The notes under the pieces are model-generated. The model did not search any database and was not told the origin of the DNA. It was given only the letters and a program-made list of their open reading frames with translations. The position numbers and the translations under genes were made by a program. DNA of 64,000 nucleotides, from the IMG/VR virus record IMGVR_UViG_3300044490_000250, positions 1-64,000 of that record; one strand, written 5' to 3'. The stretch is from a virus. How positions within the stretch are numbered: the stretch's first letter is position 1; the number at the start of each line of letters is the position of its first letter. This document shows, piece after piece, positions 7,367-57,433 of the stretch.

Positions 7367-7987
7367 GTGGACTACGGCAAGTTCATCGTCTTCGATGGCG
7401 CGGACGGTGTCGGCAAGACGACGATGGCCCGTCGATTGACGCAGTGGCTCGTCGACGCAGGCGTCCCGACGATCCTGGCCAAAGAGTCGGAGTCGGCGGA
7501 CCCCGCGGCGGCGGCGCTGTACGAAGCGGCCGTGGGGGACGCGGTCGGGGGGCGGCTGGAGCCCGTGGCCCTCCACCTGCTGTTCGCCTCGATGCGGGCG
7601 CAGCACGTAGCGCGGGTGGTACGCCCGGCGCTGACCTCCGGTACGTGGGTGGTGGGAGACCGCCACTCACTCTCGGGTCTCGTCTACGCCGGGTACGGAC
7701 TGGCGTTGCCCCTCCGTAACGTCTGGGATGTCGAGCGGACCGCGTGCGGACCCTTCCGGTCCCCGTCGCTGACCATCGTGTTGTTCCGCCGGCGTGGGAA
7801 GGTGGACGGCGAGCAGTTCTTCGAGCGCAAAGGGGACGACTTCCAGCGCCGAGTGCGGTACGGGTACGCCCAAGAGGCCAAGACGTGGGGGCTCCCGATG
7901 GTGTCGACGGACTGTAGCGAGGACGAGACGTTCGACAAGGTGCTCCTACACGTGAAGCCTTTGCTGAGGGAGGCGGCTGGTGACTGA
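7367..7987 (+). CDS. tmk: Thymidylate kinase-like enzyme
   Basis: 206 residues from GTG at 7367, behind GGAGGGG. Walker A is FDGADGVGKTT (about residues 9-19), and the DR motif is GDRHSLSGLVYAGYG (about 96-110), both typical of dTMP kinases, which make dTDP from dTMP. The usual C-terminal lid follows. A second kinase of the same fold is encoded on the other strand at 54217-54843. The gene overlaps the polymerase start by eight bases, so nucleotide supply and synthesis are translationally linked. The specificity could also be for another deoxynucleotide. Confidence 0.8.
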   Translation: MDYGKFIVFDGADGVGKTTMARRLTQWLVDAGVPTILAKESESADPAAAALYEAAVGDAVGGRLEPVALHLLFASMRAQHVARVVRPALTSGTWVVGDRHSLSGLVYAGYGLALPLRNVWDVERTACGPFRSPSLTIVLFRRRGKVDGEQFFERKGDDFQRRVRYGYAQEAKTWGLPMVSTDCSEDETFDKVLLHVKPLLREAAGD

Positions 7988-11901: not shown

Positions 11902-12885
11902 GTGCATCAGATCGTCCTGCTCGTTGCGACTCTCGTCTCTGCCGACCCGACGCTCTACGGCTGCTACGAGTCGGTCAACCGGTCCATGTACCCGGACCTT
12001 GCGCGTCTGTACTTTCGCGACCAGTACCGTCACGGGATGCGGAACGGGACAGTGAGCGGCAACACCTGCCACGCCTTCGGGCCGAACCAAGTGATCGGCC
12101 TCGCACGGCAGGTTGACATGATGGTGGAGGAGGGGATCGCGACGCCGGGCGCGCCGATGCTGGCGTTGAGCCTGGACCCCAAAGACATCGCGGCGTCGAA
12201 GGCCAGCGCGCGCTACCCGGCGCGCTGGCCTGAGCTGGTCTGCGGCAACGTGGACGAGCCAAACCCGACGCTGATCGGAGCCGTGCGCGCGAACGGGTCG
12301 GCAGCCTGGGCGGCGGGTGTCCGCAGCGGTACAGCGATCGCGGGCTACAACCTCTACCTGGACCCCGAGAGCGTCAAGTACGACGGACACCTTGCCGACT
12401 GGTTGGATATGTGGATCGTGCTGGCGTCAACGTGGCAACCCGACCTGCGCCGGAAGGCGCTGGAGGCGACTGCCGACCTGTGTGCCTACTGGGCGTACCC
12501 GCGCGAGCCCGACCGCGACCGCTACGTGGCCGGGCTGTGGTGCTGGAAGACGAACCCGAAGGTCTTCTACTACTGGGCGTACACACACGACCCGAACACG
12601 GGCATCCTGCCGAACGGCGTCAAGCAGCACGCGAAGGACGACGAGTTCTCGTTCGTGTATCCGTCGCCGACTGGGCCGGTGAGTACCCCGGCGTGGGAAG
12701 CGGCAGCGGAGGGCATTCGGGACCACGAGTTGCTCGACCGGCTGGCGGCGCAGGGCGGGAGTGAGGCATGGCTGTCAGAGCTGGCCGACAGCCTGCCGAC
12801 CGTCTGCCCCGTTCCGCCGAAGCCGGTGCCGTTCACAGACTGGAAGCGGTTGCGACGTGAATGCCTGAGGAGGCTGCACGGATGA
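11902..12885 (+). CDS. Putative glycoside hydrolase-like protein (DUF4091-type C-terminus), copy 1
   Basis: 327 residues from GTG. The first 14 residues (HQIVLLVATLVSADP) look like a short signal peptide. The C-terminal third has the hallmarks of DUF4091/GH123-type proteins: GLWCWKTNPKVFYYWAY, then DDEFSFVYPSPTGPV and AWEAAAEGIRDHELL, where the family has a 'GLF-WK...YW...YPG-DGP...R-EA-REGIEDYEYL' layout. A TIM-barrel hydrolase fold is expected. It is clearly paralogous to the next gene (shared TVSG/TVEG, QVDMMVEEGIATPGAPML/QVEAMMDAGLARPGEPML). Its substrate is unknown. The catalytic residues were not identified, so a non-catalytic sugar-binding role remains possible. Confidence 0.6.
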   Translation: MHQIVLLVATLVSADPTLYGCYESVNRSMYPDLARLYFRDQYRHGMRNGTVSGNTCHAFGPNQVIGLARQVDMMVEEGIATPGAPMLALSLDPKDIAASKASARYPARWPELVCGNVDEPNPTLIGAVRANGSAAWAAGVRSGTAIAGYNLYLDPESVKYDGHLADWLDMWIVLASTWQPDLRRKALEATADLCAYWAYPREPDRDRYVAGLWCWKTNPKVFYYWAYTHDPNTGILPNGVKQHAKDDEFSFVYPSPTGPVSTPAWEAAAEGIRDHELLDRLAAQGGSEAWLSELADSLPTVCPVPPKPVPFTDWKRLRRECLRRLHG

Positions 12886-13934
12886 TCCACTTTGGCTTCT
12901 ACTCTGCCCTGGGCCGGTTCGCCTACCCGTTCCGGTACCGCGAAGTCTACGGACACATGGCCGAGCTCGGCATGACGACCGGCACCGTGGAGGGCGGCTA
13001 CGCGCAACTGTGCCCGCAGGAGCCGCAAGTCGGCATGGTTCTGCAGGTGGAAGCCATGATGGACGCTGGGCTCGCGCGCCCAGGGGAGCCGATGCTGTTC
13101 ATCGCCGACACGGATGTCATTCGGGCCGCCATGCGGGCGAAGGAGCGCAAACTCAAGGAATCGCTGCCCGTGGCCGAGTCCAACCCGAGGCTGATCTACG
13201 ACGCGATGCAGCGGTCAAACCGGCTCCCCTGGCCGGCGCCGGTGTTGCACATCGCCGACGACCCGGCGCCGGTTGCGGGGATGCTCGATTGGCTCGCCCG
13301 CGAGCGCCTCAAGGCGCACAACTGCCACTTCCAGGTCGGCGGGAACCTCGCCGGGTACTTCCTGATGGAGGCGAAGACCGTCCGTGAGGGCGAGCCTCCG
13401 CAGACGCTCGGAGAGCAACTGGACGTGTGGATCGTCACCGCGAAGACGTGGCAGCAGGACACGGCAAAGAACGCCCGCGCCTTCGGCAAGCGCCTCTGGG
13501 CGCTGCACACCGACGGCTCGACCGGCAGCTACGAGAGGATGCGGTACCTGGGCCTGTGGGCCTGGGCCAACGGGCCGGAGCAAGTCCTGGTGTGGTCATG
13601 GACACACACCGCCGAGACGATGGTGCGGTGCGACGGCTCCCTGTGTGTGCCCAAGGACGACCACCACACCTACGCGATCCCGTCGCCGGATGGCTGGCAC
13701 GACACGCCGGGGCTGCTCGGCTACGCACAGGGCGTCAAGGACTGTCGGGCCATCGAGGCCGCAGAGCAGGCCGGGCTCCCGGCGGTCACGGCCTACTTGG
13801 CCGACCTGCGCCGGTCGGTTCCGTTCGCGTTCCCGCGCGAAGGGCGGCCGCTGCCCGCGCCGGAGGTGCGTGGCGAGGCGGTCGTCGCACAACTGGAGAA
13901 GCTGGCGCGCCAAGGACGGAAGAGAGGGGGCTGA
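12882..13934 (+). CDS. Putative glycoside hydrolase-like protein, copy 2
   Basis: 350 residues from ATG at 12882, preferred over 12861 because GAGGAGG lies upstream and the ATGA overlaps the previous stop. It aligns along its length with copy 1: QVEAMMDAGLARPGEPMLFI, LGEQLDVWIVTAKTWQ against HLADWLDMWIVLASTWQ, YLGLWAWANGPEQVLVWSW, and KDDHHTYAIPSPDGW...GYAQGVKDCRAIE. It has no signal peptide, unlike copy 1, so the two may act in different compartments. The long basic tail (RGEAVVAQLEKLARQGRKRGG) is extra. The pair represents an in-phage duplication followed by divergence, or acquisition of both. Confidence 0.6.
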   Translation: MIHFGFYSALGRFAYPFRYREVYGHMAELGMTTGTVEGGYAQLCPQEPQVGMVLQVEAMMDAGLARPGEPMLFIADTDVIRAAMRAKERKLKESLPVAESNPRLIYDAMQRSNRLPWPAPVLHIADDPAPVAGMLDWLARERLKAHNCHFQVGGNLAGYFLMEAKTVREGEPPQTLGEQLDVWIVTAKTWQQDTAKNARAFGKRLWALHTDGSTGSYERMRYLGLWAWANGPEQVLVWSWTHTAETMVRCDGSLCVPKDDHHTYAIPSPDGWHDTPGLLGYAQGVKDCRAIEAAEQAGLPAVTAYLADLRRSVPFAFPREGRPLPAPEVRGEAVVAQLEKLARQGRKRGG

Positions 13935-13939
13935 GTCCC

Positions 13940-14929
13940 GTGCATCCCGAGCCGCTGCACACACGGTTCCGGTTGTCGCCCTCCGGCCCGGTTCACATCG
14001 GACACGCGGCGTTGGCGTGGCTGTCTCAACAGGCCGCGCGCGCCACAGGCGGGACCTTCACGATCCGCGCGCAGAGCCTGTGGAACTCGCGCAGCGCCGA
14101 GAACTGGAAGAAGTACCAGAAGTGGGCGAAGGAGAACCTGGAGGCGCTGGTCGCCTGCGGCCTCGGGCCGTCTTCGCGCGAGTCGTTCCTCCTGCACGGC
14201 ATGGACCCCCAGTGGGCTCAGCAGCACATGGACGACCGCGCAACGGTCGACTGGTACTGGGAAGGCTGCAACTACGGCATCCCTGGGTTCAGCTTGGCGA
14301 AGCTGTTCGGCGGGTGGCCACCATTGGGCGATGTAGAAGTGGAGGACGACCGGCAAGCCCAGTACCTCGGCCCGCTGGCGCACAGCAGCGTCTACGCACC
14401 CTACGTGCGGATCGCGCAGATCGTGGGGGACATCACTACGGGGCGGAACTGCCTGCTGCGGGGGCAGGACCACTTCCAGGAGAAGGTCTTCGGGGATTAC
14501 TTCTACGCCCTGATCGCCAAGGAGCACTACCGCCTCGGTGATTTCGACCAGAGCGGGAGGTACGCTCCTGTGCAGTATTTCCTGCCCTTCGTGCGGATCG
14601 ACGACGACGCGAAGGTGAGTAGCTCCGACCAGAACACAGGGCGTGGGTTCTTCCTGCGGGACGTACTGGAGGCGGGCGTCCCGAACGAGGCGCTCCACGC
14701 GATGCTCGGCAAGATCATGTTCGGGTCCGTCGAGGCGGCGCAGATCGCCAACGCCACGTGGTCTACGGAGCCGGTCGCCAAGCCCAAGGACGCGACGGGC
14801 GCTGGAGTGTACCGGTACCCGGTGCAGGCCGGCGCCTGCTACGTGGTGGAGAGCCTCATCGTGCGGCAGCCGCGCATCAGCCGCGCCGAGTGGTTGCGTT
14901 TCCTACAGACCAGAGAGGTGCCGGAGTAA
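13940..14929 (+). CDS. GluRS/GluQ-like class I aminoacyl-tRNA synthetase catalytic core
   Basis: 329 residues from GTG at 13940. The start RFRLSPSGPVHIGHAALAWL is the class I HIGH signature in the glutamyl context (R-APSPTG-LHIGHA). LLRGQDHF corresponds to the GluRS VIRG-DHL block and DAKVSSSDQ to the KMSKS loop. About 60 residues remain after that loop, so the anticodon-binding domain of a full GluRS (about 470 residues) is absent, as in GluQ, which glutamylates queuosine in tRNA. The ED-TD motif near residue 40 is replaced by IRAQSLWNSRS, so the amino-acid specificity is probably changed. It is likely an amino-acid-activating enzyme acting on a tRNA, peptide or other acceptor. Confidence 0.65.
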   Translation: MHPEPLHTRFRLSPSGPVHIGHAALAWLSQQAARATGGTFTIRAQSLWNSRSAENWKKYQKWAKENLEALVACGLGPSSRESFLLHGMDPQWAQQHMDDRATVDWYWEGCNYGIPGFSLAKLFGGWPPLGDVEVEDDRQAQYLGPLAHSSVYAPYVRIAQIVGDITTGRNCLLRGQDHFQEKVFGDYFYALIAKEHYRLGDFDQSGRYAPVQYFLPFVRIDDDAKVSSSDQNTGRGFFLRDVLEAGVPNEALHAMLGKIMFGSVEAAQIANATWSTEPVAKPKDATGAGVYRYPVQAGACYVVESLIVRQPRISRAEWLRFLQTREVPE

Positions 14930-29085: not shown

Positions 29086-29394
29086 CTACCCCTCCGACTT
29101 CGGTTTGCGTGTTAGCGTGTGCAAGCCTGTGGCACCCAACCAAGCCAACGCAACCGCCGCGACAAGCTCGCCCCAGTCCACGGGCGTTCCCGACACCTGG
29201 AACGCCACCCACGACGAGACGAGGCCGATCGTCGCCGCCGTCACCGCTGCCGTGACCCGCTTCGGCCAGTCGGCTCCCTGCTGCGGGATTACGCCCAACG
29301 CCTTCAACCCTCGCATGATCGCCCAGGTCAACGCGCCGATTACGGCGACCTGGAGTTCGGGGCTGTCCATAAACGCCTTGGCGAGATGTAGCAC
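29086..29394 (-). CDS. Putative holin (three TM segments)
   Basis: 102 residues from GTG at 29394, chosen because GGAGGG lies 5 bases upstream; an ATG-only start at 29370 is possible. Three hydrophobic segments (about residues 12-33, 46-66, 72-92) and the charged tail TRKPKSEG resemble class I holins, which pierce the inner membrane and release the endolysin. It is preceded by a terminator hairpin and followed closely by the tailspike gene. Confidence 0.55.
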   Translation of the reverse strand: MLHLAKAFMDSPELQVAVIGALTWAIMRGLKALGVIPQQGADWPKRVTAAVTAATIGLVSSWVAFQVSGTPVDWGELVAAVALAWLGATGLHTLTRKPKSEG

Positions 29395-29420: not shown

Positions 29421-29450
29421 AAGGCAGGCGCTGAGAACAGCGCCTGCCTT
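29421..29450 (-). terminator. 13-bp terminator after the sugar-gene block
   Basis: The 13-base arms 29421-29433 and 29438-29450 (AAGGCAGGCGCTG and its complement) pair perfectly around a 4-base loop. On the - strand the stem is followed by TTGCTGTTTG, a partial T-run, 25 bases after the preceding stop. It is the best Rho-independent terminator in the late region. Confidence 0.75.
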
Positions 29451-29474: not shown

Positions 29475-30818
29475 TCAACCGGTAGGAATACCCGTTTCGT
29501 GCGGGGTGTAAACACCGTGCTCATCGGCGCTGGGCTCAGGCATCTGCGCCAAGTAGACCGGGTAGTGCCAGACCGCCCCGTGCTCGGGGTGAAACCCCAA
29601 GAACCACTGACGTGGTACGCTCCCTGTCTTCAGCGGCCCGGTGCTGAACGGACTAGGACCTGTGAGGCAGCCGTTGATGATCTTCTCGCCGTACATGTTG
29701 TCCAAGGTGGACGCGGCGTGGAAGTGCCCCATGTGGATGTAGTGGACGGGGATGTTGGCCAGCGTGGCCATCTTCGCGGATTCGCGGTTGATCCCGTAGT
29801 AGGGGATTCCCAAGTTGTTGGGGATGTCGTCCCCGTGTAGGATCACGTGGTTGAACCTGGGGGCCAGCGGGAGGGTGTACGCCATCCACGGCCCTTCACT
29901 GATGCACCACTTGAGCCTATCTTCGTCTCTGAACCACCCAGCCAGGAACTGGTAGAGCAGCTGGTCCCAGTTGTTCTTCGGGTGCTGCTCCCCCTTCTTG
30001 GCTGACATGCGCCCGTGGTTTCCTCGCACACAGTAGCAGGTGATCGTCTCGTAGTAGGGGAGCAACGACTCCAGCAGTTCCCGAGCCGCCGAGGCGCACG
30101 CCCACATCTGTTCGCTGGTGGGGGTGTCGATATGGACCCCCTGCCCCCGGAAGATGATCTCGCCCTCGACGAAGTCCCCTAGCCAGTTGATGACGAGGTG
30201 GCGCACATCCCCCGTTGCCTGCTCCTTCTGAGTGAGGCGGAGCACATGCCTACCCAGCAGTCTCACCCGCTCTGTGAGGATGGGCGTTGACGCCTCCCCC
30301 AGCCCAGCCACATCGTTCGCCGTCCAGTAGCTGCCCATCTGCCAATCGCTAAGTTCGAGGATCGCGTAGTGCGGCCGGCCGCGTCCCTCGTGGTTAGGGG
30401 CGGAGTAGGGTCTGGGGGTGTACCGGCCGACGTGGCTTAGCACCCCGTCCACCACCGCGTCGACGATCACTGCTTTGCGCGCTAGCTCGTCTTGGAGAGC
30501 ATCGATGGTCTTCTGCTGAGCGTCGGCGCGGCGTTGGTACCGCTGCGCCACAGGCGTGTACTGCTCGTGTGCGTACCCGCCCTCCAGTGTCGTGAGCACC
30601 TCCTCAGGCGTCATGTTGGCTGCTTGGTGCACTTGCGCGAACGCGTGCAGAGCGTGCATGACAGCACGGTGGCTCATGCCTAGCTCGTTTGCGATCTGCC
30701 GACGACTGCGGCCGTCTACTTTCATGCGAGCCACGGTGAGGTCCCGTGACTTTAGACCGATCCCGTTAGCGATCTGCTGCAACGAAACGGCAGGGCGTAC
30801 TTGATCGGCGGAAGGCAT
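29475..30818 (-). CDS. HTH plus metallophosphoesterase protein
   Basis: 447 residues from ATG at 30818, behind GAGGAGG. Residues about 30-60 (VDGRSRRQIANELGMSHRAVMHAL) form a helix-turn-helix of the transposase/sigma-region-4 kind. A calcineurin-like domain follows with LSDWQMGSYW (D-x-Q in place of D-x-H), LGDFVEGE, VRGNHGRM, ILHGDD and HMGHFHA, a near-complete metal-binding set. The mix suggests a DNA-guided phosphodiesterase or nuclease. Related unnamed phosphoesterases occur in many phages. It terminates the sugar-gene transcription unit. Confidence 0.7.
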   Translation of the reverse strand: MPSADQVRPAVSLQQIANGIGLKSRDLTVARMKVDGRSRRQIANELGMSHRAVMHALHAFAQVHQAANMTPEEVLTTLEGGYAHEQYTPVAQRYQRRADAQQKTIDALQDELARKAVIVDAVVDGVLSHVGRYTPRPYSAPNHEGRGRPHYAILELSDWQMGSYWTANDVAGLGEASTPILTERVRLLGRHVLRLTQKEQATGDVRHLVINWLGDFVEGEIIFRGQGVHIDTPTSEQMWACASAARELLESLLPYYETITCYCVRGNHGRMSAKKGEQHPKNNWDQLLYQFLAGWFRDEDRLKWCISEGPWMAYTLPLAPRFNHVILHGDDIPNNLGIPYYGINRESAKMATLANIPVHYIHMGHFHAASTLDNMYGEKIINGCLTGPSPFSTGPLKTGSVPRQWFLGFHPEHGAVWHYPVYLAQMPEPSADEHGVYTPHETGIPTG

Positions 30819-30828
30819 GTAGTCCTCC

Positions 30829-31770
30829 TCAGGACCAGCAAAAGCATCCAGTGCGCGCAGCGTGGGAAGCGGTGTCCACGGCGGCCTGGACTGCGTGGTG
30901 TAGGCTGAACCCCTGAACCAGCTCCGACGTGAACTTGGCCACAAACACGTCGCCGGCTCCACAGGTGTACCGGCCTGGAGTGGCATCCCCCGGCCGCACC
31001 CACACTGGCTGGGGGATCGGGGTGCCGCAGGAGTTGTACACAGCCCCGCTTGCGCCTTGCGTCACCACCACCGCCCCCAACCTGCGGTACCGTGCAAAGG
31101 CGGTCGTCCTGCCGGCGAGAGCGTGCAGCACGTCCACAGGGCGCGCCGGTCTGCGCGCCGACCGGCGGCGTTGGACTCTGGCGACAGCGTCTGCGTACTC
31201 GGCGGCGTTGGGGGTGGCGTAGTCCACGTGGCAAGGCAGGGGGATCAGCGGTGGCGTCTTGATGTCCACCACCACCAGCACCTCCTTCGGGCAGCCCTCA
31301 AGCAGCCAGCCCAGCCGCTCCAGCGCCCCACGGCCGTACCCACTCACCACGAGCGCGGCCACGCCAGTCCAATCAAGCGGCGCCGAGTAGACGGCCTCTC
31401 GGGAGGTGGCGGGGTTGTAGTCCCAGCGCCCAGAGATGACCGGGGTGCCGTCAGGTTCTCGGCGACCCGTGCGTATGCGAAGCAGCGTCTCCCCGGCTCG
31501 CAGGTAACTCCTCCGCTGCACTCCCACAGCCTGTAGAAGCTGATCCAGAGTGTCCCCGTAGGCGTCGGTGCCCAACTCGGCGCAGAGAAACACCGGGTGG
31601 TAGTTGACAGCGAGCACCCGTGCGACGTTGGATGCCATCCCCGGGCTGTACTCTGGAGGCGTGGCCATCTCGTGGAGGATGCAGGGGGCCTCCTGAGCCA
31701 GCCTTTGCGGAGCCCCCATCATCCAAACGTCCAAAGCTACGTCACCCAGCACGACAATCTTCGGTGGCAT
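30829..31770 (-). CDS. PfkB-family sugar kinase (HldE/RfaE kinase-like)
   Basis: 313 residues from ATG at 31770. It starts PKIVVLGDVALDVWMMG, followed by QEAPCILHEMATPPEYSPG, the same layout as the heptose-7-phosphate kinase domain of HldE (GDVMLD...PEAPVPV...PGGAAN). The anion-hole motif CGAGDVFVAKF near residue 280 holds the catalytic Asp. It would phosphorylate a sugar phosphate for a nucleotide-heptose-type precursor used by the nearby glycosyltransferases. Ribokinase-like or other PfkB specificities remain possible. Confidence 0.7.
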   Translation of the reverse strand: MPPKIVVLGDVALDVWMMGAPQRLAQEAPCILHEMATPPEYSPGMASNVARVLAVNYHPVFLCAELGTDAYGDTLDQLLQAVGVQRRSYLRAGETLLRIRTGRREPDGTPVISGRWDYNPATSREAVYSAPLDWTGVAALVVSGYGRGALERLGWLLEGCPKEVLVVVDIKTPPLIPLPCHVDYATPNAAEYADAVARVQRRRSARRPARPVDVLHALAGRTTAFARYRRLGAVVVTQGASGAVYNSCGTPIPQPVWVRPGDATPGRYTCGAGDVFVAKFTSELVQGFSLHHAVQAAVDTASHAARTGCFCWS

Positions 31771-31825
31771 CAGTGAGCGCCTCCCGTTTCTGAGACATCT
31801 ACGAACCGCGTGTTGAGCAGCGGGT

Positions 31826-32677
31826 CTACAGTCGGGCACCCTGCTCGTCGTAGTTCATCAGCAGCAGCTCCGTGCGGCGCGCCTCCGAGGGCTGGTGAGA
31901 GCGACTGGCGCAGAACACGTCACGCTCGACACGCCTCCAGCCGGCGTAGAGTGTGTCCACCAAAGGGCAGATGTAGTTGCTGACCATGACGCGAGCCTGA
32001 CACTCGTTCAGCGCAGCGGCGAGCCGACGATCGTCAGCCTCAACCCACGGGTATCGGTAGTACGGGTTCGTGTCGGAGTCGCGGTAGACGGTTGTGGTGT
32101 ACGGGCTGTCCACGTAGAATAGGGTGTCGCGGTGGTCGTACTTGGTGATGATCTTCGCGAAGTCCAGATTCTCGAAGAGCACCTCTTGGATGCGTTGACT
32201 GACCGCCGCGATCCTGGCTGTCGCGCTACGAAACGCCCGCGGGGCCCAGCTCTTCTGGTCCAGGTCCGGGTGGTGGTGGAACCCCGCGTTGTCCTTGGCG
32301 ATCCAGGAGCTAAACGAGGTTCGTAACAGGTAGAAGAACCGAACCGCGCGCTCCATGTCGCTCAGTTGGCGCCAGTCGTCTGGGGTGTAGAGGTACTGAC
32401 GCCGCCACTGCCGGAAACGGTTCCGGGAGTAGGGCAGCCGGTTGAGGTGCGAGATCAGCTCTTCCGGCCGGAGGCGCACCACTTCCCAGAGGTTGATGAG
32501 GCTGTCATCCAGGTCGTTGACCACCTCACGCACCTCACTGTTGTAGGGCCGGGCCAGCAGGATACCGCAGGCACCGGCAAACGGCTCGACGTACATTCGA
32601 TAATCTGTGGGCAGATGCGGGAGAATCCACCGAGCGTGGCTGGCCTTCCCACCCACCCAGGCAAACGGGGGTCTCAC
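31826..32677 (-). CDS. Adenine-N6 DNA methyltransferase, D12 class (Dam-like)
   Basis: 283 residues. It shows the D12 arrangement: PPFAWVGGKA at the N-terminus (AdoMet site), YVEPFAGACGILL, and the catalytic DSPYTTT near residue 189, where Dam has DPPY. VMVSNY (near 235) is the usual strand after the motif. It probably methylates adenine in phage DNA against host nucleases. The target sequence cannot be told. It sits within a set of sugar genes and overlaps the adjacent glycosyltransferase by four bases. Confidence 0.8.
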   Translation of the reverse strand: MRPPFAWVGGKASHARWILPHLPTDYRMYVEPFAGACGILLARPYNSEVREVVNDLDDSLINLWEVVRLRPEELISHLNRLPYSRNRFRQWRRQYLYTPDDWRQLSDMERAVRFFYLLRTSFSSWIAKDNAGFHHHPDLDQKSWAPRAFRSATARIAAVSQRIQEVLFENLDFAKIITKYDHRDTLFYVDSPYTTTVYRDSDTNPYYRYPWVEADDRRLAAALNECQARVMVSNYICPLVDTLYAGWRRVERDVFCASRSHQPSEARRTELLLMNYDEQGARL

Positions 32678-33699
32678 AGAGCAAGCACCTCTCGGTAGAG
32701 ATCAACGCACGCCGCCGCAGCGTCATCCCACCTGTAGAGGCGGGCCCGACGCGCCACGTCGAAGTTGCGGAGCTGGCAGCTCTCGGGCTGCCAAGTCATC
32801 ATCTGCGCCATCCCGGTAATGACCGCGGCGGGGTCGAACGGGTTGGCGTACTCCGCCGCCGTACCGAAGACTTCCCGCTCCGACGCTTGGTTTCCTACCA
32901 GGACGGGCAGCCCCACCGTCATCATCTCCAGCGCGGCCAGCCCGGGGGTCTCGTAAAGGCTGACCTGCCAGCCGAAGCGCGCGGAGGCCATCGCCGCCGC
33001 CAGACAGGCCCGGTCCAGGATGGGGGGCCAGAACGAAACGCGCCCTTGACGCTCACGACGAGCGTGGCCGATCACCACCCCTTTGCACTTGAGCTCGTCG
33101 CACGCCTCAACGAAGAGCCACCCGTTCTTGCGGTCTTCGAAGCGGCCCACGTAGAGCCACGCGCCCTGCAGGTCCTCCTTCAGCTGAGGGTCCAACGGCG
33201 CCTGCGCCATGCCAAACAGGTCCTCCACGGCGTTGTACTGCACCCGCCACGGAGGACAGGCACCCTCAAGCATCTGAGCGATGACGCCCTGCTCGGTGTA
33301 GCTGTTCGGCAGCGCGCCGGCGCACGCCCGTAGGAGCTGCGCCAAGTGCCTCTCGTGCCGCATCCCCTCCTCCGTCCCCTCAAGGTACGCCCGCTCCGCA
33401 GAAACCCCAGCACGCTGCTTCTGGTACGTCGCGAAGGCGTGCATGGGCCAGTAGATGGTGCTCAGCACAAACTGCTTGCGGTGTTCCTCGCACCAGTCCA
33501 CCACCTGCTGCTCCGCGCGACTGCTCGCGAAGCGCACAAGGTGGATAATGTCAGCGTCGACCGCCTCGGCGATGTCCGCAACTTCGACGTGGCTCACACA
33601 CTGCACGGCGGGGTGCTTCGCCACGGCGCTCACTAGCTGCCGCGCGACCTGTTGGCTTCCACCTAAGGCCCCCGTCGCGCCTACCATGACCACCTTCAT
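32674..33699 (-). CDS. Family 4 glycosyltransferase
   Basis: 341 residues, GT-B type. N-terminal MVGATGALGGSQQVARQL, linker region LYVGRFEDRKNGWLFVEA and the donor-binding motif SLYETPGLAALEMMTVGLPVLVG (near 245-268, with the paired Glu) are standard GT4 features. It should transfer a nucleotide-activated sugar, acceptor unknown. It overlaps genes on both sides by four bases, so the block is translated as a unit. Confidence 0.75.
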   Translation of the reverse strand: MKVVMVGATGALGGSQQVARQLVSAVAKHPAVQCVSHVEVADIAEAVDADIIHLVRFASSRAEQQVVDWCEEHRKQFVLSTIYWPMHAFATYQKQRAGVSAERAYLEGTEEGMRHERHLAQLLRACAGALPNSYTEQGVIAQMLEGACPPWRVQYNAVEDLFGMAQAPLDPQLKEDLQGAWLYVGRFEDRKNGWLFVEACDELKCKGVVIGHARRERQGRVSFWPPILDRACLAAAMASARFGWQVSLYETPGLAALEMMTVGLPVLVGNQASEREVFGTAAEYANPFDPAAVITGMAQMMTWQPESCQLRNFDVARRARLYRWDDAAAACVDLYREVLAL

Positions 33700-34748
33700 A
33701 GCACATCGTCTCCTCTGATTCTCGCAAGGATGCGGGGGGAGTCGCTCCGCACAATCTGTAGATGAGACAGCACGTAGTCCAGCACCTTCAACCGCTGCCA
33801 GGACATCCCGGGGTCCTGCTCCTCCCTGGTCTTACCATAGAACGTTGAGCCGTAGACGAGGGTCTCCTGAGCGTAGAACCACGCCTCCAGCGCGACGTTG
33901 GAGCAGAGCGTCAGCACCTTGATGTGCGGCAGAGACAGGATGCTGTGGATGTTGAGGTCGGCCGCCAGACGACGCGAGTACCCGACAGCCACCGCAGGAC
34001 TCGGGCACCGAGGGTGAGGCTTGAACCACGCACCCTCCCGCTCAGCCGCGCTCCGCAGGTCAAGCAACACCTGCTCGACGTTGGGCTGCACGTAGAGCGC
34101 GTTGTCCCACTCCACCTGCCCGAACCAGACTGTGTCCCCCGGCTCGACCACCGTTTCTCGCAGGGCCACAAGCCGCTGGTGCCCTGGCTTGGTCTGCTGG
34201 AGGCGGCGCCACCACCGCCCGTAGTCACGCACCCGCTGGGTGTGTGGCTCCCAAGAGGCAAACCACTCCGCGCGGTCGAGCGACGCCCCCAACACGTAGT
34301 AGGGCACGTCCCGCGTGATGATGACCGGCACGTCCCCGTCTTGTGAGGGGAAGAGCCCGTTCTCCAGGAAGGCGACAGGGACGCCCGCCTCCGCGGCGGC
34401 GAGCCTTGCACTCCAACTCACCACTTCGTGCGTCGCCCAGATCAGAACCACATCTGGCCGGCTCTCCTCCAGGCGTTGACGCCAGCAGTTCAAGTACCAC
34501 TGCGCGCGCCGCTCCCACCACGGCACAGAGTTGGGGGCGTCACGGTACCGCGAGTAGCGGTGGTTCGCCGCCCACAGCATGTACTGCACCGCACACTGCG
34601 TCAGCGGCTCGATGTCGCCCGCTGCCCCAGAGACAGGCGGCACGTCGGCCCACACCTCCACTGCCTCCCCTTCCCGCATCAGCGACTGCGCCAGGGGGGC
34701 CATGACGTGCTTCTCGATGTCGTAGTTCTCAGGGACCAGCGCGATCAT
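33696..34748 (-). CDS. Capsule-type glycosyltransferase / polysaccharide synthesis protein
   Basis: 350 residues from ATG at 34748. FLENGLFPSQDGDV and WFKPHPRCPSP resemble the conserved blocks of the KpsC/KpsS capsule (Kdo transferase-like) family and other GT-B enzymes (KPHP), followed by HIKVLTLCSNVALEAWFY, the usual acceptor/donor-side block. It probably adds a sugar to a lipid- or protein-linked acceptor. The family assignment is by these motifs only. Confidence 0.55.
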   Translation of the reverse strand: MIALVPENYDIEKHVMAPLAQSLMREGEAVEVWADVPPVSGAAGDIEPLTQCAVQYMLWAANHRYSRYRDAPNSVPWWERRAQWYLNCWRQRLEESRPDVVLIWATHEVVSWSARLAAAEAGVPVAFLENGLFPSQDGDVPVIITRDVPYYVLGASLDRAEWFASWEPHTQRVRDYGRWWRRLQQTKPGHQRLVALRETVVEPGDTVWFGQVEWDNALYVQPNVEQVLLDLRSAAEREGAWFKPHPRCPSPAVAVGYSRRLAADLNIHSILSLPHIKVLTLCSNVALEAWFYAQETLVYGSTFYGKTREEQDPGMSWQRLKVLDYVLSHLQIVRSDSPRILARIRGDDVL

Positions 34749-35020
34749 CGGACGACCTTGGCGAGGTAGTGGCCACACTCAGGGGCCACGGCCTCTTCCA
34801 GCCACTCCTGCATACTCTCAGCGAGCGTCCCCCAGTCAACCGGCTGCGGCAGCGCCTCAGCGAGGTCCTGCAGCATCTGGGTGAGCTGGTCCGCGACGGT
34901 GTGGTAGTCCACACACTTAGGCTGAAGGATGCACGTGGCACAAGCGGGGACCCCAGGCTGCGCTGGCAGCGGGTCGCCCTGGTACGTGTTGGGCAGCGCC
35001 CTTTCGAGTTGGAGATACAC
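34745..35020 (-). CDS. Small Cys protein resembling a detached SPASM-like cluster domain
   Basis: 91 residues from GTG, two bases after the radical SAM stop. Its Cys27-x2-Cys30-x5-Cys36-x3-His40 pattern (CATCILQPKCVDYH), with Cys82 further on, is like the CX2CX5CX3C core of SPASM auxiliary iron-sulfur domains that normally sit at the C-terminus of radical SAM enzymes, with His in the fourth place. Most likely it binds an auxiliary cluster for its neighbour or serves as its substrate or partner. Confidence 0.55.
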   Translation of the reverse strand: MYLQLERALPNTYQGDPLPAQPGVPACATCILQPKCVDYHTVADQLTQMLQDLAEALPQPVDWGTLAESMQEWLEEAVAPECGHYLAKVVR

Positions 35021-35022
35021 TC

Positions 35023-35895
35023 CTACACCTCCCTCATCCCTACGTCAGTGGCCACCCTGCGTGCCCACACCCACACGGGGGTGAGTAGCTCGCCCACTGA
35101 GTAGTCCTGTTCAGTCAGCCAGTAGTCGAACATCCACTGTGCATCCCAGTGCGGGGGGATGTCGGTGGCCCACTCATAGGGAGCGGGGTGCACCCACGTC
35201 ACGATCAACGGAAGACCACGGTGGAGTTGCTTCAGCGTGTCGCAAAAGTCGTGCATGGCGGCGCGCGCCTGCGGCGAAGTCCACGCGCCCGGCACCACTG
35301 TCCAGCAGTTGACGAGCGTCTGGTGGCCCGCCGTCAACAGGGCGCGTAAGGTGTCCAACGGGTCGGGCTGTTCCTCCACGCCGCTGTTCCACCGGCGGAG
35401 CTCCGGGGTGAGCCCCTTGATGCTCAACTCAGGGAACACCCGTCGCGGGTACACTGGGATGCGCTCCGGGTGGGCACCGTTGGTGTTGACGACCACGATG
35501 TGGTTGTCCCCCGCGGCGTGCTGCAGTGCCGTAATCAACTCGGGGAGCTCGGGTTCCAACGTGGGCTCTCCTCCGCTCACCCGCCACACCGGGCAGTCCC
35601 CCGCCGTCTGCACAAAGTCGTCCACGATCTCCCGCGGCGTCCGCAGTACCGTCTCTGTGCTACGCCCCCTCCAGTAGCATCCGTGACACCGCATCTGGCA
35701 GGTTGCGGTGTCGATCATCGCCACGTCGTTTGCCTCCGCGATCGTGTACGCGCGGGGCAGCCACGCACACGCCACTTCCGGCCACGGAGCGAATGCCTCC
35801 ACGTCCTCCGGCTCCTTGTAGTACGTCTTGACTCGCACGATGTCGCTTCGCTTGCCGTTCCCGCTGCGCTGCTCCGGCACCACTTCGAGTATCAT
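35023..35895 (-). CDS. Radical SAM enzyme
   Basis: 290 residues. The cluster motif CQMRCHGC near residues 65-72 (CX3CX2C), GGEPTLE near 110 and VNTNGAHP near 138 define an AdoMet radical protein. No full SPASM domain follows; a separate Cys protein is encoded immediately downstream. Neighbours are glycosyltransferases, so it may modify a sugar, a nucleotide or a protein/peptide acceptor; 7-carboxy-7-deazaguanine synthase-like or peptide-modifying types are conceivable. Its substrate cannot be assigned. Confidence 0.8.
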   Translation of the reverse strand: MILEVVPEQRSGNGKRSDIVRVKTYYKEPEDVEAFAPWPEVACAWLPRAYTIAEANDVAMIDTATCQMRCHGCYWRGRSTETVLRTPREIVDDFVQTAGDCPVWRVSGGEPTLEPELPELITALQHAAGDNHIVVVNTNGAHPERIPVYPRRVFPELSIKGLTPELRRWNSGVEEQPDPLDTLRALLTAGHQTLVNCWTVVPGAWTSPQARAAMHDFCDTLKQLHRGLPLIVTWVHPAPYEWATDIPPHWDAQWMFDYWLTEQDYSVGELLTPVWVWARRVATDVGMREV

Positions 35896-36875
35896 CCGTC
35901 CAGCACCTCATTTAGAGTGACACCTCTGGTCTTCAACAGAAAGTCCACGCCCCGAACGACCCTGTCCACCCTGTGCGCGGTTTGACACCGGGCGCCGCAC
36001 CCAGCCACTTGGTACCGGTACTCGCAAGGAGAGCACGTCAAGTCCTTAGGTTCCAGCGCCAGCAGGGGACCGGGGCAGTCCGGTAGGCGGAGCGCCGCTG
36101 ACGACACCCCCATGAGCGCCAGCAGTTTGATGGGCAGCCCGCCGGCCTTCAGCGCGGCGCACAGATGAAGAGGACTGGAGTCCGCCGAAATGACAACGTC
36201 GCACGCCGCGATGGCCGCCGCGCACTTGCGAAGGGCGCTCCTTCCGTCCATCACAGCGTCCACGGCCGGCGGAGCGTTGTCCCCAATCCACACCACCGAC
36301 CCCCGTTCCTGGAGGGGCGCCACTGCATCGGCAGCCGCCGCCCACCGCCGTTCCGCGGAAGAGGACTCCGCACAGACACCGATCAACGGCCGACGCAGGC
36401 TGCTCAACGAGCGCTGCGCGTCGACCAGCTCCTCGCGTTCGATGTAGTAGTCCAGGTGCAGACTGCTCAGTCGCAGCCCGAGTGCCTCGGCAAACAAGCG
36501 AGCGCGTGGGGTCTGGCAGCATTGAGGGTGGCGCTCCGGGTAGTGGCGTAGATCGGCCAGCACACCGGGCGCGGTGTGGTCCAGCTCACCAAAGTCGCGT
36601 ACCTCATGGACGTTGGGGTTCCCCCGCAGCACCTCGGCGCTTCTGGGGGAAGTGTAGTAGGTCACTCGCAAGCCTGGGTACTGACGTTGCAGCTGGCGCA
36701 GAGCGGGCGTCGTCATTAGCACGTCCCCGGCACCGCCTGGACGCACAATCGACAGCCCCACCTCTTGTGCACGCATCAAGTCCACCGGCAGCAGCACACG
36801 CCGGTCACGTTGACGTAGAAAGGTCTGCACGAAACTCGCAGCTTGGTTGGGGATGTCGGTGCGTTGAAAGCGCAA
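35892..36875 (-). CDS. Family 9 glycosyltransferase (heptosyltransferase-like), copy 1
   Basis: 327 residues from TTG, behind GAGGAGACCGAGGG. The motif IVRPGGAGDVLMTTPALRQL (near 42-62) is the GT9 donor-side start (ADP-heptose:LPS heptosyltransferase family), and ISADSSPLHLCAAL (near 230) the conserved second-half block. A C-terminal Cys set (LTCSPCEYRYQVAGCGARC) also occurs in many GT9 proteins. First gene behind the promoter at 36944. Works with the PfkB/HldE-like kinase is inferred. Confidence 0.8.
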   Translation of the reverse strand: MRFQRTDIPNQAASFVQTFLRQRDRRVLLPVDLMRAQEVGLSIVRPGGAGDVLMTTPALRQLQRQYPGLRVTYYTSPRSAEVLRGNPNVHEVRDFGELDHTAPGVLADLRHYPERHPQCCQTPRARLFAEALGLRLSSLHLDYYIEREELVDAQRSLSSLRRPLIGVCAESSSAERRWAAAADAVAPLQERGSVVWIGDNAPPAVDAVMDGRSALRKCAAAIAACDVVISADSSPLHLCAALKAGGLPIKLLALMGVSSAALRLPDCPGPLLALEPKDLTCSPCEYRYQVAGCGARCQTAHRVDRVVRGVDFLLKTRGVTLNEVLDG

Positions 36876-36943: not shown

Positions 36944-36972
36944 ATTGTAGCACACCCACCCTTGAGTGTCAA
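36944..36972 (-). promoter_or_regulatory. Near-perfect sigma70 promoter for the sugar-gene block
   Basis: On the - strand: TTGACA (36972-36967), a 17-base spacer and TACAAT (36949-36944). Transcription should begin near 36937, about 60 bases before the GT9 gene. Confidence 0.8.
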
Positions 36973-36975
36973 CCC

Positions 36976-37194
36976 CTACTTCCGCAGCGCCGGGTGGCCC
37001 TGATGGAAGTCCTCCCAGCCACGACAGCCGTCGTTCGGCCAAACCCAAGGATCACCAAACTCCCGCTCGTCGCGAACGTCCACGTCGGGGTTCGCTCGCT
37101 CCCAGCGTCGCCGCCTCCGATGTGCCAGCCGCCTCCACCAACGCTCGCTTTCGCAGTTTCCCCACTGCCCGTGCTTCTTGTAAGACCGGCTCAT
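36976..37194 (-). CDS. Small basic Arg/Trp-rich protein
   Basis: 72 residues from ATG at 37194, behind GGAGGG. The sequence is very basic in the middle (RRLAHRRRRRWERANP) and contains SYKKHGQWGN at the start. It probably binds nucleic acid or RNA. The second promoter of this region (37269-37297) lies directly upstream, and the next promoter overlaps its 3' end, so it is expressed strongly on its own. No family was recognised. Confidence 0.55.
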   Translation of the reverse strand: MSRSYKKHGQWGNCESERWWRRLAHRRRRRWERANPDVDVRDEREFGDPWVWPNDGCRGWEDFHQGHPALRK

Positions 37195-37268: not shown

Positions 37269-37297
37269 AGTATAGCAAGCCTCGCCGGTTGTGTCAA
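37269..37297 (-). promoter_or_regulatory. Near-perfect sigma70 promoter
   Basis: On the - strand: TTGACA (37297-37292), 17-base spacer, TATACT (37274-37269). It marks the boundary between the tail genes and the sugar-gene block. Confidence 0.8.
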
Positions 37298-37301
37298 GAC
37301 C

Positions 37302-38321
37302 TCAAAGCGTCTGACTTTGCCGGCCGGTGATGGTGGCCGTCAGCGTCCCCTGCCGCACGTAGTCGCCATCGTTGCTGATCGTCAGGATGCAGCGATTCGC
37401 TTGCCACATCTCCGTCAAGACCACAGTACAGTCGGTGATGGGGTCGCCCAGGTCGTCGGTGAGCTCGACCACCCGCCCAGGCACGTGGGTGTACGTCTCA
37501 TGGTCAATCGTGATGGGGGCCGTCACTTCGTCGGGGTCGAGCGGCCCCCACTCGTAGGTCTGCACCTCTGTGTCTTGGCGGCCGACCCCGGGGAGTAGAC
37601 GGCGGGCCGCCCCAGAGGGTGAGTTGCTGTACGCCGTCACCGTGCCGCCGCCATCCAAGGTCACCGTGGCGATAAGGATGTCGGTGTCCGCGGCGACCGC
37701 GTTGGTGGTGGCGACGAACCGCACCATGCCGTAGTAGTTCTGCTGAGTGTCCCCGCCCTCCCGGATGTAGATGTAGTTCAGCGCGCCGTTCGTCAGGCCC
37801 TGCACGTAGAAATGCGTCAAGGTGAAGGTGTCCCCTACCTCCACCGCTACCGGCAGGACGGTCTCCCAGTTCACCTGCTTCGTGGTGCTGTTGTAGCTCT
37901 GGATCGCGCGCACCAGCCCGTCGTTGGACCCGCTCGTGAAGACGATGTACCCGCCCGCCGGCCAGAAGGCATCATCCGCGGCGTCCAGGCTGCTGTCACG
38001 CACGTAGGTGGTGCTGCCGGCAGTGGCGACGCCATCCTCCTCCATGTCGTTCGTCATGTAAAAGGGCCGCCCACCCACGAGCCCAACGATCGGCGAGGAG
38101 CCGTCAGGCGGCGCGATCCGTAGCGTGGTGTCGTCGAACTGGCAACGTTCGGGGTCGGCGAGCACCACACCCTGCTCGAACACCATCTGCAAAACGCTGC
38201 GGCAGACGTGTTCCAGCACATGCGCCGCGCGGTTGTAGTCGGTGGCCGCGGTGCGTCCAGTTGCGGCACGCGCCCAAGGCAGCTGGAAGTTGGGGCCAGT
38301 GGCTCCGGTGGATACACCCAT
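37302..38321 (-). CDS. Tail or virion structural protein
   Basis: 339 residues from ATG at 38321, behind AAGGAG. It is beta-rich with mostly small polar residues (GSTTYVRDSSLDAADDAF, ADTDILIATVTLDGGGTV, ITDCTVVLTEMWQANR). No enzyme motif is seen. The Gly/Thr-rich strand pattern, and the position between the large tail protein and the sugar genes, fit an adhesion or fibre component. No specific family is recognised. Confidence 0.55.
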   Translation of the reverse strand: MGVSTGATGPNFQLPWARAATGRTAATDYNRAAHVLEHVCRSVLQMVFEQGVVLADPERCQFDDTTLRIAPPDGSSPIVGLVGGRPFYMTNDMEEDGVATAGSTTYVRDSSLDAADDAFWPAGGYIVFTSGSNDGLVRAIQSYNSTTKQVNWETVLPVAVEVGDTFTLTHFYVQGLTNGALNYIYIREGGDTQQNYYGMVRFVATTNAVAADTDILIATVTLDGGGTVTAYSNSPSGAARRLLPGVGRQDTEVQTYEWGPLDPDEVTAPITIDHETYTHVPGRVVELTDDLGDPITDCTVVLTEMWQANRCILTISNDGDYVRQGTLTATITGRQSQTL

Positions 38322-54217: not shown

Positions 54218-54843
54218 CACCGCACCTCAAGCAGCGGACGAACCAGCGTTTGAATGTCCTGCAGCACCCGCCCCCTCGAACGTGAGGCGTCCACCACCAT
54301 CACTGACATCGTGGGGCACGCCCGCACCGCATCCAGGTAGCCCTCACGCATCTCTTCCAAGAACGCCGTCCCTCTCGCTTCCCAGTAGTCTGGGTCGGAG
54401 AGCCGCTGCAACGCCGTGCGTCCAGGGCAGTCCAACACCACCGTCAGGTCCGGGAGCAGGCCGCCGTTCGCTGCGGTCTCCAGCATCTGCACTGCCACGC
54501 TCCCCACCCCGCACAGCATCCCCTGGTTCACAAGGTTCGTCAGATGATAGCGGTCCGCCACAACCGCTGCGCCCCGCGTCAGCGCTGGGCGGATGATCGT
54601 GTCTACCATGTACGCCCGGTCGGCCGCGACAGCCAACGCCCGAGCCAGAGGCGGCAACGCCCCCGCGATCTCCGCAGAGGCGACCAGACTTCGCAAGTGC
54701 GCCCCGGCGGGTGTGGCCTCCGCCGCCGCACGCACATCCACTGTATCGTACCCCAGCTCAGCCAACCACAATCGCAGAGCCGTACCCTGCGTGGTCTTCC
54801 CCGCTCCACAGATGCCTTCCAAGGCTATGAACAAGCCGCTCAT
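54217..54843 (-). CDS. Thymidylate kinase-like enzyme, second copy
   Basis: 208 residues from ATG at 54843. P-loop ALEGICGAGKTT and DR motif ADRYHLTNLVNQGM are those of the dTMP kinase family; the central ADRAYMVDTIIRPAL is like the first copy's layout. It lies between capsid and connector genes, far from nucleotide metabolism, and overlaps a glycosyltransferase gene. It may phosphorylate an unusual deoxynucleotide or a sugar-modified base precursor; an ordinary dTMP kinase acquired twice is the simple alternative. Confidence 0.75.
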   Translation of the reverse strand: MSGLFIALEGICGAGKTTQGTALRLWLAELGYDTVDVRAAAEATPAGAHLRSLVASAEIAGALPPLARALAVAADRAYMVDTIIRPALTRGAAVVADRYHLTNLVNQGMLCGVGSVAVQMLETAANGGLLPDLTVVLDCPGRTALQRLSDPDYWEARGTAFLEEMREGYLDAVRACPTMSVMVVDASRSRGRVLQDIQTLVRPLLEVR

Positions 54844-56030
54844 CGCTTCGACTCCAACGCGGCGATTACGCTCTCCACCGAAATCGCGTCGAAGCACTTC
54901 GCCTTGGTCGCCGCGGTACACCGGTCTCCACGAGACTGACAGCTACGGCACGGACTCGGACTCTCAAGCACCGTGCAGTGCGGCTGGCCCACCACTCTCA
55001 AGTTCGCCGCTACCGGCCCGAAGAGCCCCACCGAAGGCCGCCCCAACGCGTTGGCCAAGTGCAGAGTTCCGGTGTCCACCGCCAGTACCACGCTACGACT
55101 CATCAAACGGATGGCTGTTCGGTAGTCGCAGCCGTTGTAGTTCAACCCCACGTCGTCAGGCCACCACGGAAGCGGCTCGTTGAACACCCCCACAGGCGTC
55201 CAGCCGGCGCTCGCCGCGGCCTGTACCAACGCCCTCGCATGACCGAAGCTGGGCCCGCGCGTCCAGGTGCTCCCGCTGAGGTCCACACACAACGGGTGGA
55301 CCACACCCTCCAACTCCGGCACGTCCTCGCTGTGCGGTCGGCACACCATCTGGTAGTCGCCACCGCACGACACCCCCAGCCCATCCGCGAACTGCTCCAT
55401 ACGGTTGGTCTGAGCACGACGTGGGTGCGCCTCCACCCACAACCGCAAGTCTACGTCGACATCGAAGGGGGCTGCATCGTACACGTCCGATGGGGCGTAG
55501 ACCTGCTCAAACAGCCCCGTGTCTTCCATGAACGGCCGAGTGGCGGTGCTTGTCGCAAGCGACAGATTGACGTTTGGGTGCTGCTTCCTCAAGGCCCGCA
55601 CAGCGGCCGTGAGGAACATCAAGTCCCCGCAGCCCCCGTGCCGCTGGATCAACGCCCTCGCGTTGGGCTCTCGCTGCAACTGCTCATGGAGCGTCACCCG
55701 CCGCACTTGGGTTCGCCGCACCAAGTGCAGGAACTCCACCCGGTCCACCCCCAACCAGCTACCCGGAGACAGCACAAACTCCCGCAGCGTCTGGTCGATC
55801 CGAACTCGCACCCGCTCCCGCCGCGAGGTCGAGGTGGTCACATAGTATGCCGGAGCCAGCTCGCTATCGGTGCGGACGATGATGTTCGCCATCCTGGGGG
55901 CCAGGAGCCAGAACAGGTCCGTCTCCGACTCCACATCGGTCCACTCACCACGCCGCAGTGTAAGCCGGCCCCCTCCCGCTGTGCGAACCGTCAACGTGGT
56001 GGCCCCGGTGGTGGTCACCCGGGGTCTCAT
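54840..56030 (-). CDS. Family 9 glycosyltransferase (heptosyltransferase-like), copy 2
   Basis: 396 residues from ATG at 56030. An extra N-terminal 120-residue domain is beta-rich (TTTGATTLTVRTAGGGRLTL). Then GT9 follows: IQRHGGCGDLMFLTAAVRAL near residue 130 and AVDTGTLHLANALGRPSVGLFGPV near 325-350, plus the Cys set CRSCQSRGDRCTAATKAKC. It is within the head gene cluster, suggesting glycosylation of a capsid protein or of DNA. It shows no close similarity to copy 1 beyond family motifs. Confidence 0.75.
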   Translation of the reverse strand: MRPRVTTTGATTLTVRTAGGGRLTLRRGEWTDVESETDLFWLLAPRMANIIVRTDSELAPAYYVTTSTSRRERVRVRIDQTLREFVLSPGSWLGVDRVEFLHLVRRTQVRRVTLHEQLQREPNARALIQRHGGCGDLMFLTAAVRALRKQHPNVNLSLATSTATRPFMEDTGLFEQVYAPSDVYDAAPFDVDVDLRLWVEAHPRRAQTNRMEQFADGLGVSCGGDYQMVCRPHSEDVPELEGVVHPLCVDLSGSTWTRGPSFGHARALVQAAASAGWTPVGVFNEPLPWWPDDVGLNYNGCDYRTAIRLMSRSVVLAVDTGTLHLANALGRPSVGLFGPVAANLRVVGQPHCTVLESPSPCRSCQSRGDRCTAATKAKCFDAISVESVIAALESKR

Positions 56031-56398: not shown

Positions 56399-57433
56399 TC
56401 AGGACACCGCCACAGGATCGACGTTGACCGCCAGCGAGGTCCACTCAGGAACCGCCAGCATGATGCCAAGCCGACCCACCCAGTGTGCGTGCACGACCTT
56501 CCCGTCGCGAGCCCTGACGCCCCGATGGTAGATCATCTCGGGCTTGTAGCCGAGGAAGAACTCCTCGTCACGCGCCAGCGCCACATAGGTGTACTCGTCC
56601 TCCGAGTCCGACAGGCTGTCCACGCCCGCGGCGTCGTCCGGGATGTAAGGCTCAGGGAGCAGCTTGATGCCGCGATACGCTGGGATGTTCCCATCGATCA
56701 GCTGCATGTCGCCGAGCCCAGTCGCCCGCTCCTGGAGGTACTGACACCACGCGTACCACACGCGGTACGAGACCAGGAAGTTGTAGCCCTTGGTGTCCCC
56801 GCCAATCGGCTGCATCGGCTTCGGCAGCGCCTCGATCAGCGTCTGGAACAGCGCGGGACCCACGCCCACACCGGCGTAGTCCGTGAGGTTGCCCTCACCC
56901 AGCAGCACACGCCACCCGTCATAGTCCGTAGTCCACGACTCACCGGCAGGCACAGCCCCACCAGCGGTGTCGGACTTCCACGCCGACTCGGCCAAGTTGT
57001 TGGCGATGGTCTTCAGTGCCGCCGCGACGAGGTTCTGCTCCTCCGCGGGACCCTGCAGATTATCCATCAGCGCGTACCGCGTCATGTCGAGGTGGGCCTC
57101 CCACGCGTACACCGTGAGAGACTTGCTGTCATAGGACGGGACGATGTACTGCGCCGGGTCCATCTCCTCCAGGTCATCCAAGCCCCACTGGATGGCCACC
57201 GCCGGCAGCGACCGACGACTCACGTCCAGAGACGTGGACCCCATCGCGATACGGTTCGCCGGAGGAATCCTCCGCATCACACCGTTCGCGGTGTAGTCCA
57301 ACACCAGATCAATGAACGTCTTGACCTGCTCCGTACCCCACTCCTGAGAACCATCCCCCGTTGCGAGATTGAACAGCTCGCTCGAAGACGGCTCAGGGTA
57401 CGTCCCTGCCACTTCCTGCAGCTCCGGGTCCAT
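56399..57433 (-). CDS. Major capsid protein (HK97 fold)
   Basis: 344 residues from ATG with AGGAGGG upstream. N-arm (SSELFNLATGDGSQEWG), long helix (VKTFIDLVLDYTANGVMRR), E-loop-like and P-domain segments, and a late beta region (VHAHWVGRLGIMLAVPEWTSLAVNVDP). It lies after protease/scaffold, in the usual place, with a strong ribosome-binding site and a stabilising hairpin after it. No covalent cross-linking is predictable. Confidence 0.75.
   Translation of the reverse strand: MDPELQEVAGTYPEPSSSELFNLATGDGSQEWGTEQVKTFIDLVLDYTANGVMRRIPPANRIAMGSTSLDVSRRSLPAVAIQWGLDDLEEMDPAQYIVPSYDSKSLTVYAWEAHLDMTRYALMDNLQGPAEEQNLVAAALKTIANNLAESAWKSDTAGGAVPAGESWTTDYDGWRVLLGEGNLTDYAGVGVGPALFQTLIEALPKPMQPIGGDTKGYNFLVSYRVWYAWCQYLQERATGLGDMQLIDGNIPAYRGIKLLPEPYIPDDAAGVDSLSDSEDEYTYVALARDEEFFLGYKPEMIYHRGVRARDGKVVHAHWVGRLGIMLAVPEWTSLAVNVDPVAVS

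Follow-up and report, generated by a model that had tools for sequence, protein, structure and literature searches.

The DNA analysed here, called the window, comprises bases 1–64,000 of the IMG/VR virus record IMGVR_UViG_3300044490_000250, which totals 79,558 bases (65.5% GC), and the element in question is a block of eight tightly packed minus-strand genes at 29475–36875, three of which encode glycosyltransferases (Table 1). The record belongs to a tailed phage whose minus strand carries genes for virion proteins, among them terminase, portal, capsid and tape measure, and whose plus strand encodes helicases, a fusion of uracil-DNA glycosylase (UDG) to DNA polymerase A and recombination proteins; two IMG/VR fragments carry terminases identical to its own. 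The block had been picked out in a preliminary description made from the letters alone, and all eight of its genes and their family assignments are borne out. Neighbouring genes overlap by 4 nucleotides (nt) at four of the seven junctions and lie 2, 55 and 10 nt apart at the rest. GC content and GC content at third codon positions (GC3) of the block are like those of the remainder of the phage, which rules out a recent horizontal arrival as far as composition can tell. The record has no near relative, and the block no blastn relative, among 50,697 phage records; blastn and tblastn found neither the whole block nor parts of it in known phages, and searches of viral contigs likewise found neither.

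Table 1. Features of the block and related features, in window positions; L numbers denote loci or contigs, whose genes were called with our own simple caller, and G numbers denote genomes (aa, amino acids)
Feature	Position	Strand	Remarks
Holin-like gene, far side of slot	29086..29394	-	Weak phrog_1299 holin match, E 0.009
Intrinsic-terminator-like hairpin	29421..29450	-	13-bp stem; between phosphoesterase and holin-like genes
Helix-turn-helix (HTH) + metallophosphoesterase (phage exonuclease family)	29475..30818	-	phrog_284 exonuclease 5e-38
PfkB-family sugar kinase, kinase domain alone, nearest HldE domain I	30829..31770	-	PfkB 8e-18
D12/Dam-type N6-adenine DNA methyltransferase	31826..32677	-	PF02086 (MethyltransfD12) 8e-30; TIGR00571 over cut-off; phrog_56 2e-67
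GT4 glycosyltransferase	32674..33699	-	PF13692 7e-8
Capsule-synthesis-type (PF05159-like) glycosyltransferase	33696..34748	-	Homologous to L060 (4e-22), L070, L071
91-aa protein, four Cys (27, 30, 36, 82)	34745..35020	-	No family match
Radical SAM protein, 290 aa	35023..35895	-	PF04055 2e-10; 41.5 bits vs gathering 29.5
GT9 glycosyltransferase (heptosyltransferase family), 327 aa	35892..36875	-	PF01075 3e-8; TTG start
Sigma70-like promoter TTGACA-17-TACAAT	36944..36972	-	Extended -10 TG; 11/12 matches; immediately upstream of block
72-aa gene	36976-37194		Between upstream promoter and block
Sigma70-like promoter TTGACA-17-TATACT	37269..37297	-	Extended -10 TG; 11/12 matches; upstream of 72-aa gene
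Last tail gene before block	37302..38321	-	phmmer 4e-9 to L063
Second GT9 of phage	54840..56030	-	PF01075 3e-7; 30.3 bits vs 22
Major capsid protein	56399..57433	-	tblastn to annotated Streptomyces phage capsid proteins; phrog_1623 virion structural protein
Armatimonadota cluster loci			L111+L064+L112 (G057); L117+L068+L118 (G108); L144+L066+L116 (G083); L146/L145/L149 (G120); L062/L069 (G200); L133-L143 (G288, G126, G131, G102, G019, G066); L070+L153 (G202)

The GT9 protein of the block passes the gathering score of PF01075 (33.6 bits against 22), and in an alignment of 12 sequences G50, D51, D232 and H237 are invariant, within conserved columns GD (towards the N-terminus), E, R, D and H; the D(S/T)GxxH motif is present with DSS in place of DSG. 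It stays below the equivalog cut-offs for lipopolysaccharide (LPS) heptosyltransferases (TIGR02193, 42.5 against 185.3 bits; TIGR02195, 30.6 against 134.6). The capsule-synthesis-type enzyme itself has no confident Pfam match, but the assignment holds because its homologues L070 and L071 match PF05159 Capsule_synth (1e-10 and 3e-22); L070 sits in a particle-gene cluster. Among the 11 best matches of the GT4 protein in 201 Armatimonadota genomes, the three highest and two more, all five within the first seven, are the GT4 encoded next to the portal gene in the particle cluster described below, and the stretches STIYW and YETPGLAALE are common to the aligned proteins. No convincing membrane segment is found in any of the eight block proteins (maximum 19-residue hydropathy 1.51), and no membrane protein, flippase, polymerase or acyltransferase is among them.

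Strong matches of the block GT9 in the same 201 genomes lie nearly all inside one phage-derived particle cluster, which runs for about 25 kb from terminase to lysin and whose capsid homologue occurs in 25 of 291 genomes, usually once in each. The cluster and the phage have portal, capsid and several tail genes in common, at 20–40% identity. No integrase or replication genes are seen in the cluster, a UspA flank downstream of it is common to G057, G083, G108, G120 and G200, and the synonymous divergence of the flanks is similar to that of the cluster. To judge from these comparisons, Armatimonadota chromosomes hold a vertically inherited, gene-transfer-agent-like particle cluster related to the phage, although binning of the metagenome-assembled genomes could misassign contigs. 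A literature search on Armatimonadota and gene transfer agents retrieved no description of such a cluster.

Three positions in the chromosomal cluster take transferases: the first after the portal gene, the second after the capsid gene, and the third behind the last tail gene, ahead of the holin gene. GT4 occupies the first position in G057, G083, G108, G120 and G200; GT9 occupies the second in these five and in G164 and G187, and the third in all seven and in G198, and G202 has a PF05159-type transferase in the third. All three positions are empty in five other genomes that have the cluster (G288, G131, G102, G066 and G126), and in G019 the first and second are empty and the third, where no transferase is seen, is probably empty too. 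G187 has the GT9s without the GT4, so that the set is not strictly all-or-none. Slots are unreadable where the cluster is split across contigs, namely that of GT4 in G164 and G198 and, in G002, every one except that on the capsid side. In comparisons of G057 with its relatives, dN/dS is 0.10–0.23 for the cluster transferases and mostly 0.06–0.25 for virion genes; the transferase genes are under purifying selection. The phage block occupies the third position in expanded form, and the last tail gene before it and the gene flanking the glycosyltransferase slot in the clusters are homologues; the tail-protein alignment brought up no viral relatives. Of the search for the block in related phages that had been suggested, the part concerning a complete block came to nothing, but relatives of the transferases do turn up in particle-gene slots of the Armatimonadota clusters.

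A second GT9, overlooked in the preliminary description, lies two genes after the major capsid gene of the phage, and in the GT9 tree it groups with the head-slot GT9 of L079 (support 98/95). The pairing recurs in diverse IMG/VR viruses: a GT9 relative directly follows the capsid homologue in about 15 of 37 contigs (L072, L077, L079, L083–L086, L090–L093 and L099–L101 show this order), and L073, L078 and L081 have single proteins that combine two or three GT9 domains. A proposed homology between the N-terminus of the second GT9 and the small head gene that precedes it was unsupported (E 1.9). This capsid-side GT9, its repetition in IMG/VR, and the gene-transfer-agent-like cluster with transferase slots are new relative to the preliminary description.

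Glycosyltransferase genes thus lie within or beside structural genes and are conserved there in relatives, as is expected for virion glycosylation. We lean, with modest confidence, towards the view that the glycosyltransferase part of the block (GT9, the capsule-type enzyme, GT4 and perhaps the PfkB kinase) serves this tailed phage as an accessory locus for virion glycosylation, because the relatives keep transferases in the slot between tail and holin genes and a portal-side GT4 in the same clusters. Modification of the particle would be the simplest account of transferases that are made from particle operons, come without membrane parts and are kept by chromosomal clusters. Gene content, operon layout, positional conservation, homology and purifying selection on the chromosomal relatives are the observations behind this view; acceptor, sugar, timing and benefit are conjectural in the scheme that follows. 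The cytoplasmic transferases would be made together with the late proteins and would draw on host nucleotide-sugars, topped up by the HldA-like kinase of the block and by a GmhB-like phosphatase encoded elsewhere in the phage (record positions 64299–64871). During assembly the sugar or sugars, possibly of heptose or Kdo type, would be moved onto the capsid by the head GT9 and onto a tail protein by the block enzymes, and release of the particles would come last.

Several points weigh against virion glycosylation. No relative carrying the complete block was found in the phage records, viral contigs and genome contigs searched. In the GT9 tree the block GT9 is a long unplaced branch and does not group with the tail-slot GT9s, so that the equivalence of the slots is claimed as positional and not as orthology. 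The radical SAM protein has no explanation under virion glycosylation, and the synthesis of host LPS likewise draws on GT9 and GT4 enzymes. Pelagimyophages carry cassettes of glycosyltransferases, rfaE and radical SAM genes near tail-fibre genes, and these have been published as modifiers of the host O-chain (PMC7029224).

The last points lead to the main rival, in which the block changes a glycan on the host surface, either at a late stage of infection or in the lysogenic state, and so stops other phages or the phage's own progeny from binding the infected cell or its debris. We consider this unlikely, even though GT9 and PF05159 are families of LPS-core and capsule synthesis, and the phage has both the HldE-like kinase in the block and the GmhB-like phosphatase outside it. 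Strong HldE-domain matches also occur in most of the sampled Armatimonadota genomes, so that a host of this phylum likely has a heptose pathway. The lack of membrane protein, flippase, polymerase and acyltransferase speaks against it, as does the location of the transferase relatives within particle-gene operons, two of them beside portal and capsid genes; the integral membrane component of O-antigen-modifying cassettes of Gtr, Wzy or Oac type is found in none of the eight block proteins. The host-recognition islands of pelagimyophages and cyanomyophages are alike in that tail genes have genes for glycosyltransferases, radical SAM proteins and an rfaE-like kinase in their vicinity, but those of pelagimyophages hold mostly GT8 (PMC7029224), whereas here the types are GT9, GT4 and PF05159-like, with relatives inside particle-gene operons. 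One of the two uses put forward in the preliminary description, a surface sugar as a barrier to further infection, gained no evidence; of the alternatives offered there, only the virion branch did.

Less likely still is that the slot is hypervariable and the block a loose assortment of accessory genes that have a promoter in common and no pathway. Such a set would fit the generic phage relatives of the Dam and phosphoesterase genes, which lack the remaining block genes, and the slot contents, which differ between elements (various transferases) or are absent. However, overlaps of 4 nt or a gap of 2 nt couple GT9, radical SAM, the Cys protein, the capsule-type transferase, GT4 and Dam, and the three transferases are separate proteins, each with relatives in the same type of cluster. 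Protection of phage DNA from restriction through glycosylation or hypermodification by the block, the other half of the suggestion that a sugar is put on DNA or virion, is very improbable, since a DNA methylase in the operon, another N6/N4 methylase elsewhere in the phage, a GluRS-like protein (13940–14929) and the UDG–polymerase fusion are set against the absence, in a Pfam survey of about 50 phage proteins out of a larger gene set, of a thymidylate-synthase-type hydroxymethylase or base oxygenase, against GATC sites that are not avoided (1.3 times expectation), and against transferase relatives that sit in particle operons.

The radical SAM gene and the gene for the 91-aa Cys protein lie between those of GT9 and the capsule-type transferase. 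The radical SAM protein has CxxxCxxC at residues 66–73 (Cys 66, 70 and 73) and GGEP at 108, and no SPASM-like Cys cluster. Elsewhere it has core-domain matches only, a search of genome contigs found no relative, and no particle-slot transferases paired with a radical SAM/Cys protein pair were found outside this phage in the searches made. Identity with QueE of the queuosine-type pathway was rejected, as QueE matches are weak and no other deazaguanine enzyme was seen, and a single-sequence AlphaFold model was discarded at pLDDT 35. The Cys protein is possibly a metal or Fe–S partner of the radical SAM protein, and the two may tailor the sugar or its acceptor.

The claim of an HldE-like kinase holds only at the level of fold; the protein is a kinase domain alone, without an adenylyltransferase domain, and its best NCBIfam model, TIGR02198 (rfaE_dom_I, 7e-19), gives 68 bits against a cut-off of 345. 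The PDB sequence matches of the HAD phosphatase outside the block include D,D-heptose 1,7-bisphosphate phosphatase (2e-7). With a PfkB protein like HldE domain I, a GmhB-like HAD phosphatase and the GT9 fold, the phage resembles the ADP-heptose pathway (HldE, GmhB, WaaC/WaaF), but kinase and GT9 are far under the equivalog cut-offs and an isomerase, an adenylyltransferase and an epimerase are not recognised; family resemblance thus hints faintly at a heptose-type donor. For PfkB genes in the vicinity of the chromosomal clusters in G057 and G083 a phage-borne origin was rejected, as these genes are 25–45 kb away among cellular genes. The start of the Dam gene is set at GTG 32677 because an N-terminal FAWVGGK motif precedes the ATG chosen by the gene caller; avoidance of GATC as a trace of Dam or restriction is absent. 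By tblastn the HTH-metallophosphoesterase is distantly related to sequences of Streptomyces and Synechococcus phages, and it and the Dam methylase are probably ordinary DNA-metabolism cargo unrelated to the sugar genes.

The two promoters of the block are the best sigma70-type matches in the entire 79.6-kb genome, and five sites of this form are observed in the window against 0.18 expected. Both had been said to precede the block; they are present, but the upstream one (37297) fronts the 72-aa gene and not the block directly. The closing hairpin was likewise recovered (−30.2 kcal/mol for the folded stretch 29450–29421, z −3.9) with a mediocre T tract. Because the holin-like gene and the distal late genes are downstream of it, they need read-through or another promoter. 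The claim that the block is expressed separately from the tail genes is not supported: the stretch from the last tail gene to the block contains no strong terminator, so that late read-through into the block is probably to be expected, alongside its own promoters. A protein resembling sigma70 regions 2 and 4 is encoded at record positions 66744–67235 (L002:6744–7235) and may be a phage sigma factor; the promoters at the block are of plain sigma70 type.

Armatimonadota were considered as the likely host because of a DUF1559-type pseudopilin gene with a prepilin cleavage motif in the phage (10967–11626), such pilins being abundant in this phylum; by this pilin and the particle genes in common, the phage probably infects Armatimonadota. 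A pilin-like gene near the particle cluster also occurs in L063, L136 and L137. Beyond the pilin gene lie two mutually related proteins without a Pfam match (11902–12885 and 12882–13934), which we take to resemble GH123/DUF4091 glycosidases, followed by the GluRS-like protein; L108:2–3885 holds relatives of the 11902–12885 gene, the GluRS-like gene and the next gene in the same order. In the UDG–polymerase fusion, encoded at 7980–10769, the UDG domain is the N-terminal part.

Virion glycosylation has, to our knowledge, been demonstrated in few phages only. According to PMC11256854, citing Freeman 2023, capsid proteins of mycobacteriophages Che8 and Rita bear glycans and the glycosyltransferases are encoded by the phage; in mycobacteriophage Maravista the glycosyltransferase genes are placed near the 3′ end of the genome. 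The likeness lies in phage-encoded glycosyltransferases, proposed or shown in those phages to glycosylate major capsid proteins. Here, by contrast, the predicted transferases lie among head, tail and lysis genes and are of GT9, GT4 and PF05159-like types accompanied by a radical SAM protein. If virion glycosylation is right, the block would work like the mycobacteriophage system, while its gene content resembles the pelagimyophage cassettes.

A bolder proposal, which we hold to be improbable, is that this Armatimonadota phage lineage and the gene-transfer-agent-like cluster of its hosts would both make sugar-coated particles with transferases at fixed positions (GT4 at the portal, GT9 at the capsid, GT9 or capsule-type at the tail), the tail position here having expanded into a pathway whose radical SAM protein and small Cys-rich partner tailor sugar or acceptor. 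We know of no virion for which a radical SAM tailoring step has been described. Apart from this proposal, a transferase slot recurs at fixed places of particle operons: in a little-studied phylum it is kept by chromosomal clusters passed on vertically, and it is seen in a free phage as well as in many contigs of uncultivated viruses. Virion glycosylation, if that is what the slot serves, would then be a recurrent trait, and a use would be found for glycosyltransferases that are often filed as host-surface auxiliary metabolic genes.

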